A stretch of DNA of 64,000 bases from Pseudorhodoferax soli (GTDB taxonomy: Bacteria > Pseudomonadota > Gammaproteobacteria > Burkholderiales > Burkholderiaceae_C). Position 1 is the stretch's first letter, and every line of letters begins with the position of its first letter. Shown piece by piece: positions 20,054 to 22,850 of the stretch. The notes under the pieces are model-generated. The model made no database searches. It was not told the origin of the DNA and worked only from the letters and a program-made list of their open reading frames with translations. The DNA is taken from positions 620,001 through 684,000 of the forward strand of contig NZ_QPJK01000002.1 in the NCBI RefSeq assembly GCF_003337555.1, in the 5' to 3' direction. Made by a program: the position numbers and the translations under genes.

Positions 20054-21181
20054 TCAGGATGAGGTGGCCGCAGCCCGGCGCTTCGCCACGGCCCGGGCCA
20101 GGGTCTCCAGCACATCGACCGAAGGCTCCCAGCCCAGGCAGGCATCGGTGATGCTCTTGCCGTAGGCCAGCGCGCGCACGTCGTCCTTGCCCGGCGTGAA
20201 CTTCTGCGCGCCGGCCACAAGGTGGCTTTCCACCATCACCCCGAACACCTGGCGCGAGCCACCGGCGATCTGGGCCGCGATGTCGCCCGCCACCTCGGTC
20301 TGCTTCTCGTGCTGCTTGCTGCTGTTGGCGTGGCTGCAATCCACCATGAGCTTGGGCTGCATGCCCGCCGCCTCCAGCTCCTTGCAGGCAGCAGCCACGC
20401 TGGCGGCGTCGTAGTTGGGGGCCTTGCCGCCGCGCAGGATCACATGGCAATCCTTGTTGCCGTTGGTCTGCACGATGGCGACCTGGCCGTTCTTGTGCAC
20501 CGACAGGAAGTGGTGACCGCGCGCAGCCGCCTGTATGGCGTCGGTGGCGATCCGGATGTTGCCGTCCGTGCCGTTCTTGAAGCCGATCGGTGCCGACAGG
20601 CCCGAGGCCAGCTCGCGATGGACCTGGCTTTCGGTGGTGCGCGCGCCGATCGCACCCCAGGCGATCAGGTCGCCGATGTACTGCGGTGAGATCACATCCA
20701 GAAACTCACTGCCGGCCGGCAGGCCGAGCCGGTTGATGTCGATCAACAGCTGCCGCGCGATGCGCAGTCCTTCGTCGATGCGGTAGCTCTCGTCCAGGTA
20801 GGGATCGTTGATCAAACCCTTCCAACCCACGGTGGTGCGCGGCTTCTCGAAGTAGACCCGCATGACGATCTCCAGGTCGTCGGCGTATTTGTCGCGCAAG
20901 GGCTTCAGGCGCCGCGCGTACTCCAGTGCAGCGGCCGGGTCGTGGATCGAACACGGTCCGATGACCACCAGCAGGCGGTCGTCCTGGCCGGCCATGATGT
21001 CGTGGATGCGCCCGCGGGTGCGGCCGATCAGCGCCTCGACCGGCGTCCCGCGGATCGGGAAGAAGCGGATCAAGTGTTCGGGAGGCGGGAGCACGTTGAT
21101 GTCCTTGATGCGTTCGTCGTCGGTCTGGCTGGTCTTGTCGACGGTCGCGTACCAGGCGTCTGGGGTCTGTTGCGTGCTCAT
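20054..21181 (-). CDS. aroG: 3-deoxy-7-phosphoheptulonate (DAHP) synthase, class I
   Basis: 375-residue AroF/G/H-type enzyme that condenses PEP and erythrose-4-phosphate, the entry to aromatic amino acid synthesis. Family blocks visible: LLVVIGPCSIHDP, RVYFEKPRTTVGWKGLINDP, GARTTESQ, GFKNGTDG, HVILRGGKAPNY and MVDCSHAN. The ATG at 21181 has AGGAAG at a good distance. Upstream lies an aromatic leader peptide and an intrinsic terminator, showing regulation by transcription attenuation. Which of the aromatic amino acids inhibits the enzyme cannot be read from the sequence; the symbol aroG is approximate. Confidence 0.96.
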   Translation of the reverse strand: MSTQQTPDAWYATVDKTSQTDDERIKDINVLPPPEHLIRFFPIRGTPVEALIGRTRGRIHDIMAGQDDRLLVVIGPCSIHDPAAALEYARRLKPLRDKYADDLEIVMRVYFEKPRTTVGWKGLINDPYLDESYRIDEGLRIARQLLIDINRLGLPAGSEFLDVISPQYIGDLIAWGAIGARTTESQVHRELASGLSAPIGFKNGTDGNIRIATDAIQAAARGHHFLSVHKNGQVAIVQTNGNKDCHVILRGGKAPNYDAASVAAACKELEAAGMQPKLMVDCSHANSSKQHEKQTEVAGDIAAQIAGGSRQVFGVMVESHLVAGAQKFTPGKDDVRALAYGKSITDACLGWEPSVDVLETLARAVAKRRAAATSS

Positions 21182-21215
21182 GGTCTCTTCCTGTGGTTGT
21201 GAAATCGTTGGGGCC

Positions 21216-21250
21216 AAAAAAAACCGCCGGTCCTTGCGGTACCGGCGGTT
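21216..21250 (-). terminator. Attenuator terminator upstream of DAHP synthase
   Basis: On the minus strand AACCGCCGGT (21250-21241) pairs perfectly with ACCGGCGGTT (21231-21222), 9-nt loop, followed directly by a run of T through 21216 (8 Ts in total with the stem end). It lies 25 nt after the leader-peptide stop and 34 nt before the aroG start. The leader sequence CCGGCGG at 21300-21294 can pair with the same 5' arm, forming an antiterminator. Confidence 0.92.
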
Positions 21251-21274
21251 CTTGGAGGTTCTGTCGTCTGCTGT

Positions 21275-21349
21275 TTACGCGCGCGCCTCTCGTCCGCCGG
21301 ATTCCGGGAACCAAAAGTAGGCAAAGTAAAAGGCGCGGGAGGCAGACAT
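21275..21349 (-). CDS. Aromatic leader peptide controlling DAHP synthase
   Basis: 24-residue peptide starting MSASRA, with the cluster FYFAYFWF (four Phe, two Tyr and one Trp in eight residues), then PESGGREARA and TAA at 21277-21275. Such clusters occur by chance very rarely and are the mark of ribosome-mediated attenuation, where scarcity of charged tRNA-Phe, -Tyr or -Trp stalls the ribosome. The codons for Ser-Gly-Gly overlap the antiterminator strand. There is no Shine-Dalgarno; a TGTGCTAGAGT promoter-like sequence ends 8 nt before the ATG. Confidence 0.85.
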   Translation of the reverse strand: MSASRAFYFAYFWFPESGGREARA

Positions 21350-21357
21350 CGGGCGCG

Positions 21358-21363
21358 ACTCTA
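21358..21363 (-). promoter_or_regulatory. Candidate -10 (TAGAGT) of the aroG leader transcript
   Basis: TAGAGT with an upstream TG-N (TGTGCTAGAGT on the minus strand) fits an extended -10. The predicted start site is within about 1-2 nt of the leader ATG at 21349, which would make the leader peptide leaderless. No good -35 is seen. It overlaps the region just after the tldD stop. Confidence 0.4.
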
Positions 21364-21377
21364 GCACACCGATCGCA

Positions 21378-22850
21378 TCAGGCCGTGCCGCCGACCGTGA
21401 GGCCGTCGATGCGCAGCGTGGGCTGGCCCACGCCCACGGGCACGCTCTGGCCTTCCTTGCCGCAGGTGCCCACGCCCGAATCGAGCTTCATGTCGTTGCC
21501 GATCATGGACACGCGCGTCAGCGCGTCCGGGCCGTTGCCGACCAGCGTGGCGCCCTTGACCGGGTACTGGATCTTGCCGTTCTCGACCCAGAAGGCCTCG
21601 CTCGCGGAGAACACGAACTTGCCCGAGGTGATGTCGACCTGGCCACCGCCGAAGTTGCTGGCGTACAGGCCCTTCTTGATGCTGGCGATGATCTCGGCCG
21701 GCTCCCTGTCGCCACCCAGCATGTAGGTGTTGGTCATGCGCGGCATCGGGATGTGGGCGTAGCTCTCGCGCCGGCCGTTGCCGGTTGGCTTGGTCTTCAT
21801 GAGGCGCGCGTTCATCGCGTCCTGGATGTAGCCCTTGAGGATGCCGTCCTCGATCAGCACGTTGCGCTGGCTGGTGTTGCCCTCGTCATCGACGTTGAGC
21901 GAGCCGCGGCGGTCGGCGATCGTGCCGTCGTCCAGCACCGTCACGCCCTTGGCGGCCACGCGCTGGCCGATGCGCCCGCTGAAGGCGCTCGATCCCTTGC
22001 GGTTGAAGTCGCCTTCCAGCCCGTGGCCGATGGCCTCGTGCAGCAGGATGCCGGGCCAGCCGGCGCCCAGCACCACCGTCATCTCGCCAGCCGGCGCCGG
22101 GCGCGCTTCCAGGTTGGTCAGCGCGGCCTGCACGGCCTGGTCCACATATTCGTCGATGCGTGCTGAATCGAAGTAGGCCAGGCCGAAGCGGCCACCGCCG
22201 CCGCTGGAGCCGACCTCGCGGCGCGTCTGGCCGCCCACCTGGGCCTCGGCGATCACGGTCACGGACAGGCGCACCAACGGGCGCACGTCGGCCGCCAGCG
22301 TGCCGTCGGCGCGCGCCACCAGCACCACGTCGTATTCGCTCGCCAGCCCCGCCATGACCTGCACCACCCGCGGGTCCTTGGCACGCGCGCGCTGCTCCAC
22401 CTGTTCGAGCAGCTTGACCTTGGCCGTGCTGTCCAGCGTGGCGATGGGGTCCAGGCCGTCGTACAGCGAGCGGCTGCGGGCGATCTTTTGCGCAGGCACC
22501 TTGGCGCGCTTGTTCTGCGCAGCGGAAGAGATCGCGCGCACGGTGCGCGCGGCGTCCAGCAGCGAAGCCTCGGAGATGTCGTCGGAATAGGCGAAGGCCG
22601 TCTTCTCGCCGCTGACCGCGCGCACGCCCACGCCCTGGTCGATGCTGAAGGAGCCGGTCTTGACGATGCCCTCCTCCAGGCTCCAGCCCTCGCTGCGCGT
22701 GTACTGGAAGTACAGGTCGGCATCGTCGACCTTGTGCGCCTGGATCTCGGCCAGCGCGCGCTGCAGGTGCGCGGGCGTGAGGCCGAAGGGATCGAGCAGC
22801 AGTTGCTGGGCGGTGGCGATGCGGGCCAGGGTGGGTTCGCGGGAGATCAT
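21378..22850 (-). CDS. tldD: TldD metalloprotease subunit
   Basis: 490-residue subunit of the TldD/TldE(PmbA) peptidase, which trims peptides such as modified antibacterial peptides and CcdA antitoxin. The zinc-binding helix HEAIGH starts at His271 within LLHEAIGHGLEGDF, and the later GTCGKEGQSVPVGVGQP segment provides the third ligand region. Length is normal for TldD. The start ATG at 22850 gives a typical N-terminus. No tldE is seen in the window. Confidence 0.95.
   Translation of the reverse strand: MISREPTLARIATAQQLLLDPFGLTPAHLQRALAEIQAHKVDDADLYFQYTRSEGWSLEEGIVKTGSFSIDQGVGVRAVSGEKTAFAYSDDISEASLLDAARTVRAISSAAQNKRAKVPAQKIARSRSLYDGLDPIATLDSTAKVKLLEQVEQRARAKDPRVVQVMAGLASEYDVVLVARADGTLAADVRPLVRLSVTVIAEAQVGGQTRREVGSSGGGGRFGLAYFDSARIDEYVDQAVQAALTNLEARPAPAGEMTVVLGAGWPGILLHEAIGHGLEGDFNRKGSSAFSGRIGQRVAAKGVTVLDDGTIADRRGSLNVDDEGNTSQRNVLIEDGILKGYIQDAMNARLMKTKPTGNGRRESYAHIPMPRMTNTYMLGGDREPAEIIASIKKGLYASNFGGGQVDITSGKFVFSASEAFWVENGKIQYPVKGATLVGNGPDALTRVSMIGNDMKLDSGVGTCGKEGQSVPVGVGQPTLRIDGLTVGGTA

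Follow-up and report, generated by a model that had tools for sequence, protein, structure and literature searches.

A conserved aromatic leader peptide and predicted transcription attenuator upstream of the DAHP synthase gene aroG in Pseudorhodoferax soli and its relatives

The class I DAHP synthase gene aroG of Pseudorhodoferax soli is preceded by a short ORF rich in Phe, Tyr and Trp codons and by an intrinsic terminator, and this arrangement is found in nearly all genomes of its family that we searched. Judging from the conserved aromatic codons, the conserved terminator and an antiterminator with compensatory changes, we have little doubt that it is a ribosome-mediated transcription attenuator, which would sense charged tRNA-Phe, tRNA-Tyr and tRNA-Trp. 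Attenuation had already been proposed in a preliminary description of the locus, and comparison among relatives strongly supports it. Two features go beyond that description, an antiterminator strand lying within the leader ORF and a probable leaderless start of the leader mRNA.

Organization of the aroG leader region

The locus lies in a stretch of 64,000 nucleotides of contig NZ_QPJK01000002.1 (assembly GCF_003337555.1, positions 620,001 to 684,000), which we call the window; the features of the locus are collected in Table 1. The assignment of AroG is based on a profile search (542.9 bits against TIGR00034, cut-off 173.2), and a Shine-Dalgarno-like AGGA is located before aroG at 21192-21189. 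The aromatic ORF reported in the preliminary description is borne out at its full length of 24 codons, and so is its core FYFAYFWF (leader codons 7-14, the Phe/Tyr/Trp control codons), in which seven of eight residues are aromatic and Phe, Tyr and Trp are each represented. The hairpin had been described as a perfect 10-bp stem with a run of 8 T, 25 nt after the stop codon; the stem (AACCGCCGGT/ACCGGCGGTT) and the T run (21223-21216, two of its T residues belonging to the stem) stand as described, but the distance from stop codon to stem is 24 nt. The spacing of 34 nt from the T run to the aroG ATG had been given correctly. The end of tldD is 28 nt, and the element TGCTAGAGT 8 nt, from the leader ATG. 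None of the Rfam 15 covariance models (leaders, T-box, riboswitches) matched positions 20500-22700 of the window, even with E values of up to 1 allowed.

Table 1. Features of the aroG leader region (coordinates of the window)
Feature	Position	Strand	Evidence or remark
tldD	ORF 22850-21378	minus	NCBIfam PRK10735.1
Extended -10 element TGCTAGAGT	21358..21366	minus	TGnTAnAnT spacing across 52 loci
-10 hexamer TAGAGT	21363-21358	minus	part of TGCTAGAGT
Leader peptide ORF MSASRAFYFAYFWFPESGGREARA	21275..21349 (ATG 21349, TAA 21275)	minus	24 codons + TAA
Strand 1 (limits approximate)	21319..21337	minus	minimum free energy fold; predicted partner, strand 2
Strand 2 CCGGCGG..GAGAGG, predicted antiterminator 5' side within leader ORF	21286..21300	minus	
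CCTC, predicted antiterminator inner helix	21255..21258	minus	partner GAGG 21289-21286
Strand 3 AACCGCCGGT, terminator 5' arm	21241..21250	minus	
Terminator loop	21240-21232	minus	
Strand 4 ACCGGCGGTT + T run	21216..21231	minus	terminator 3' arm, 21231-21222
aroG, class I DAHP synthase, 375 aa	20054..21181 (ATG 21181)	minus	

Conservation in the family

Genome contigs were scanned with the AroG protein and the best 80 of 526 loci were kept. Named in the record titles of these loci are Variovorax, Pseudorhodoferax, Polaromonas, Hydrogenophaga, Ramlibacter, Acidovorax and further Comamonadaceae, along with metagenome bins whose labels go no lower than family, order or phylum. A short ORF with at least five aromatic residues in eight precedes aroG in 79 of these best 80, L043 being the sole locus where an aromatic leader was not found upstream of aroG. 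The leader is located 89-164 nt ahead of the point where the aroG match begins, or 38 nt in the single case of L046, and a terminator-like hairpin was called in the window and in 78 of the 79 leader loci, the one without it again being L046. The non-redundant set used below has 52 rows, namely the window and 51 of the 78 loci with a hairpin; for L013, L029 and L064 the leader start is the first in-frame ATG.

The codon pattern of FYFAYFWF, with up to two mismatches, was present in 114 of 299 genomes of the family, and none of the 299 contained the reversed control pattern, so the pattern is not due to chance; among 30 matches that were fetched, 29 directly precede aroG and one (L102) reaches the contig end. 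The 52 rows also served to build a covariance model, which matched 194 of the 200 genomes of the family that were searched with it (176 of the 179 of good quality) and missed the other six. Short aromatic-rich ORFs do appear in 12 of 1240 shuffled upstream regions of the order survey described below; the conservation in 79 of the best 80 loci and in 194 family genomes nevertheless refutes a chance ORF beside an ordinary terminator, to which we give practically no credence. Judging from the sequence comparison, the observation of an aromatic leader followed by a terminator is correct and not a product of chance.

The same genome carries a second class I DAHP synthase on contig 1 (L002/L217), with 59% identity to the AroG of the window, and no aromatic leader was found upstream of this paralog.

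Leader codons and the amino acids presumably sensed

The preliminary description held that leader codons not conserved among relatives would speak against attenuation; the codons proved to be conserved as amino acids, with synonymous changes. Among codons 4-15 of the 52 leaders, a share of 0.577 encodes aromatic residues when read in frame, compared with 0.179 and 0.127 in the other two frames. A block [YF]FW[FI] is present in 49, its first residue being Tyr in all 49 (TAC 42, TAT 7) and the following Phe being encoded by TTT in 47 and by TTC in 2. Upstream of the block, Phe and Tyr interchange freely.

Among all leader Phe codons of the 52 loci, TTT accounts for 144 of 229. The aroG stretches, taken from 49 loci, contain 409 Phe codons, of which 54 are TTT and 355 are TTC. 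Slower decoding or weaker RNA structure is a possible reason for the TTT preference in the leaders.

Recurrence of the Y-F-W-F block in the family could be expected of an arrest peptide of the TnaC type, in which the nascent chain would sense a free aromatic ligand instead of tRNA charging. Such a peptide should keep specific positions, whereas the order of the aromatic residues varies across families (FYFAYFWF, FFAFYFWF, YFFWFWY, FYFWYYF, FFFFFYF) at constant density, and the antiterminator geometry described below suits stalling at codons; we regard an arrest peptide as very unlikely.

A narrower form of attenuation, in which the attenuator is real and senses mainly one or two amino acids (e.g., Phe, or Phe and Tyr), the remaining aromatic codons being incidental, deserves more weight, and we consider it possible, if rather improbable. 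Phe is the most frequent leader residue (19%), the last Phe of the window's run (codon 14) no longer favours the antiterminator in the stalling model below, and the Phe-Tyr-Phe leader aroR of Corynebacterium glutamicum responds to Phe limitation and not to Tyr availability, according to a 2025 review (PMC11802643). Against this, Phe, Tyr and Trp all occur in 51 of 52 leaders, the [YF]FW[FI] block is retained as given above, and stalls at Y11 and W13 still yield the antiterminator in the model for the window. Sensing of all three aromatic amino acids in vivo, as the preliminary description had it, is what the codon content of the leaders suggests.

Promoter and probable leaderless start

A TGnTAnAnT element precedes the leader in all 52 loci, with 8 nt from its end to the leader ATG in 26 loci, 7 in 17 and 6 in 9; none of the 279 other ATGs in these stretches has the element at this spacing of 6-8 nt. 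A sigma-70 scan requiring a -35 element found no promoter, the conserved site being an extended -10. Given a spacing of 6-8 nt, the usual promoter geometry places the start 0-2 nt before the leader AUG, which in the window predicts transcription from about 21351. A search of the 13 nt preceding the leader found no AGGA, GGAG or GAGG in any of the 52 loci. The extended -10 at 6-8 nt from the ATG in 52/52 suggests that the leader mRNA probably lacks a 5' UTR. In Burkholderia cenocepacia, leaderless transcripts have been described that have a TA-rich motif immediately upstream (PMC4603805). Among 29 listed leaders from outside the family, a relaxed form of the -10 pattern was, by raw count, present in 15 and absent from 14.

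A predicted antiterminator excluding the terminator

Just past the aromatic run, strand 2 contains CCGGCGG, which is identical to the core of the 3' arm of the terminator and can therefore pair with CCGCCGG (21248-21242) inside strand 3; this segment thus has strand 2 as its second partner. GGCG and GAG are invariant in the alignment A1. Both strands were found in 94 of 96 loci, and pairing between strands 2 and 3 extends over 7 of 7 positions in 68 of these, over 6 in 17 and over at most 5 in 9. At position 2 of this helix, C-G (CC/GG) in 45 rows is replaced by U-A (CT/AG) in 18, with U-G rows as intermediates, and the change is mostly accompanied by a change in strand 4.

The inner helix, GAGG:CCTC in the window, switches partners between clades; at its position 15 the pair is G-C in 30 of the 52 loci, A-U in 9 and U-A in 4, and is unpaired in 9. 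The mean energy of this duplex is -6.25 kcal/mol for native pairs, -5.37 (sd 0.17) when the partners are permuted between species and -3.05 for shuffled partners; 0 of 5000 permutations matched the native pairing, a comparison uncorrected for relatedness. RNAalifold on a MAFFT alignment of 37 rows recovered the outer antiterminator helix only, with no double change. Since MAFFT misaligns the 3' side, as seen by eye, the sequences were folded singly with the outer helix enforced, and the covariation evidence given here comes from these per-sequence folds and the wider sampling, not from RNAalifold. The two pairings are mutually exclusive, and in the fold that we predict the antiterminator, backed by compensatory changes, excludes the terminator.

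The RNA motif of strand 2 is conserved even where the reading frame is shifted (L035, L078, L118-L120), and on this ground it appears to be held as RNA and not as peptide. This bears on the idea that the ORF is a functional small membrane protein and that the hairpin just terminates the tldD transcript. The peptide is indeed hydrophobic and aromatic and begins only a short distance after tldD. Its C-terminal part tracks an RNA motif that survives frame shifts, however, tldD and the leader are separated by a promoter-like element, the 34 nt ahead of aroG are all that is left for another promoter, and the antiterminator carries compensatory changes, so we hold a membrane protein to be extremely improbable.

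Stalling model and proposed mechanism

We modelled ribosome stalling with an assumed footprint of 29 nt and with the RNA extended to the end of strand 3. In the window, strands 2 and 3 pair with a probability of 0.82-1.0 when the A site lies within codons 2-13 and of 0.0 when it lies within codons 14-24; in the model the switch point is thus where the aromatic run ends, which is what attenuation calls for. At the stop codon, where the edge of the footprint just frees strand 2, the probability is 0.88, a value that depends on the assumed footprint. In the model without a ribosome, strands 2 and 3 do not pair in the window (0.0) and strands 1 and 2 do (0.99; mean over the 52 loci, 0.73). Averaged over the 52 loci, pairing between strands 2 and 3 has a probability of 0.93 with the ribosome at aromatic codons, of 0.49 with it at the stop codon and of 0.31 when there is none. 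A value above 0.5 at aromatic codons together with one below 0.5 at the stop codon was obtained for 27 of the 52, and in 14 of the 52 the antiterminator was favoured even with no ribosome.

We infer the following sequence of events, from transcription start and translation to stalling and readthrough. RNA polymerase would start at the leader AUG or no more than about 2 nt from it, and a ribosome would load on the leaderless message. When charged tRNA-Phe, tRNA-Tyr or tRNA-Trp is short, the ribosome would be stalled in FYFAYFW and cover strand 1, so that strand 2 would pair with strand 3 and transcription would read through into aroG. When all three tRNAs are plentiful, the ribosome would proceed over strand 2, strands 3 and 4 would fold into the terminator, and transcription would end with the release of an RNA of roughly 135 nt. 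If the leader is not translated, strands 1 and 2 are predicted to pair, judging from the sequence of the window, and the terminator would form as well.

Reach beyond the family

In the order to which the window belongs, the covariance model matched 79 of 300 genomes, some of them weakly or partially. Each of the 30 best matches has an aromatic leader before aroG; these are the window, eight others of its family and 21 of other families. In a model-free survey of the order, 99 DAHP synthase places were found in 74 of 100 genomes, and 90 were examined, the nine weakest being left out. A short ORF with at least five aromatic residues in eight lies upstream of 22 of the 62 genes with at least 60% identity, compared with the 12 of 1240 shuffles cited above and 2 of 62 reverse strands; upstream of the 28 genes below 60% identity no aromatic ORF was found (shuffles, 4 of 560). 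One of the 22, the leader of L214, is probably a chance hydrophobic ORF. The distribution of the leader outside the family of the window is thus patchy in this sample of the order.

In the same sample, 10 of the 62 aroG genes have a tldD C-terminal motif upstream but no leader, and 3 of the 62 have both, as counted with a hand list of 22 leaders that contains L178 in place of L214. Because the motif also precedes aroG where there is no leader, this gene neighbourhood has a broader distribution than the leader has.

In the class, the model R1 matched 10 of 229 genomes, three of which are the genome of the window, G114 and G128. Two other matches (G601 and G753) lie before aroG in one family outside the order. 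That family was picked for sampling since these two genomes had matched the model; the leader was found at all seven aroG genes identified there (in 7 of 30 genomes), the two included, with FYFWYY in most of the leaders. The remaining five matched genomes were rejected as candidates, the match being to the 3' part of the model only, at loci with no AroG hit.

Other putative leaders of the lineage

Of 23 trpE loci, 10 are preceded by a putative leader with the motif GAWPWR and an extended -10 at 6-8 nt. The genome of the window is among them; its trpE (L287, contig 12) has the leader MSAHSTTTSGTGRGAWPWRKPTTSRT, which is probably leaderless and whose ATG follows TGCTACACT at 8 nt. Putative Leu-rich leaders with a like -10 spacing precede leuA in 6 of the 23 loci examined for it (L247-L250, L252, L253), and genome G114 also appears to have a Leu-rich leader of leaderless type before leuA (L144); no such leuA leader with this spacing was found in six genomes of the genus of the window.

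A wider reading joins two propositions, that a pan-aromatic attenuator, responding through one leader to a lack of any of Phe, Tyr and Trp, stands at the entry of the pathway and that leaderless initiation is the general rule for attenuator leaders of this lineage. We see the balance for and against the two together as even. If both hold, leaderless initiation would couple ribosome and polymerase from the first nucleotides.

If true, our interpretation would explain how influx into the shikimate pathway is controlled in a large group of proteobacteria where matches to TrpR are nil and full matches to TyrR few. It would also provide a sensor, made by nature, that covers the tRNAs of all three aromatic amino acids, and a widespread, conserved case of attenuation from a leaderless message, through which the role of the 5' UTR and the timing of initiation become testable.

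Comparison with known systems

In its sequence, the aroG leader region conforms to ribosome-mediated attenuation of the trp type. The leader regions of trpL and pheL in Escherichia coli have a four-strand layout with an intrinsic terminator, and their leader mRNAs have ordinary 5' UTRs. As at aroG, a leader ORF with control codons precedes a biosynthetic gene (PMC11802643); unlike the aroG leader, each of the two senses one amino acid and controls a branch operon. The DAHP synthase genes of E. coli are instead controlled by TyrR and TrpR. The contrast drawn in the preliminary description with these repressors holds for TrpR, since TIGR01321 matched 0 of 25 relatives. It is incomplete for TyrR, since the TyrR-type domain (TIGR04381) was above the cut-off in 1 of 25 and weaker in 5 more, including the genome of the window (22.7 bits, cut-off 30). 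Among 14 control genomes, E. coli alone was positive for TIGR01321 and for TIGR04381.

Vitreschak and co-workers are said to have published a comparative survey of attenuators in 2004. In the parts of the open PMC literature consulted, including PMC12125101, we found no report of a proteobacterial DAHP synthase gene preceded by an aromatic leader, and the words 'aroG' and 'DAHP' are absent from the main texts of PMC2965389 and PMC4833913.

The trpL leader of trpE(G) in Sinorhizobium meliloti is leaderless, as is probable here, the 5' end of the RNA being the ATG of a 14-aa ORF, and it has a terminator and an antiterminator, as predicted here (PMC7298713). It differs from the aroG leader in that Trp is sensed and trpE(G) is controlled; the trpL products act in trans (PMC7298713).

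In the literature consulted, the nearest known case is aroR, which precedes aroF in C. glutamicum. This attenuator was reportedly treated by Neshat and co-workers in 2014, and attenuators of C. glutamicum are said to be leaderless transcripts. As at aroG, an aromatic leader is located before a DAHP synthase operon; ribosome stalling raises transcription there (PMC11802643), as we predict for aroG. C. glutamicum belongs to another phylum, and aroR contains Phe-Tyr-Phe, in contrast to the seven aromatic residues including Trp found here; the two were compared by description only. Attenuation of this kind is known, and what appears new, against the portions of the literature consulted, is this member of it, the inclusion of Trp, the near-universality in the family and the reach beyond it.
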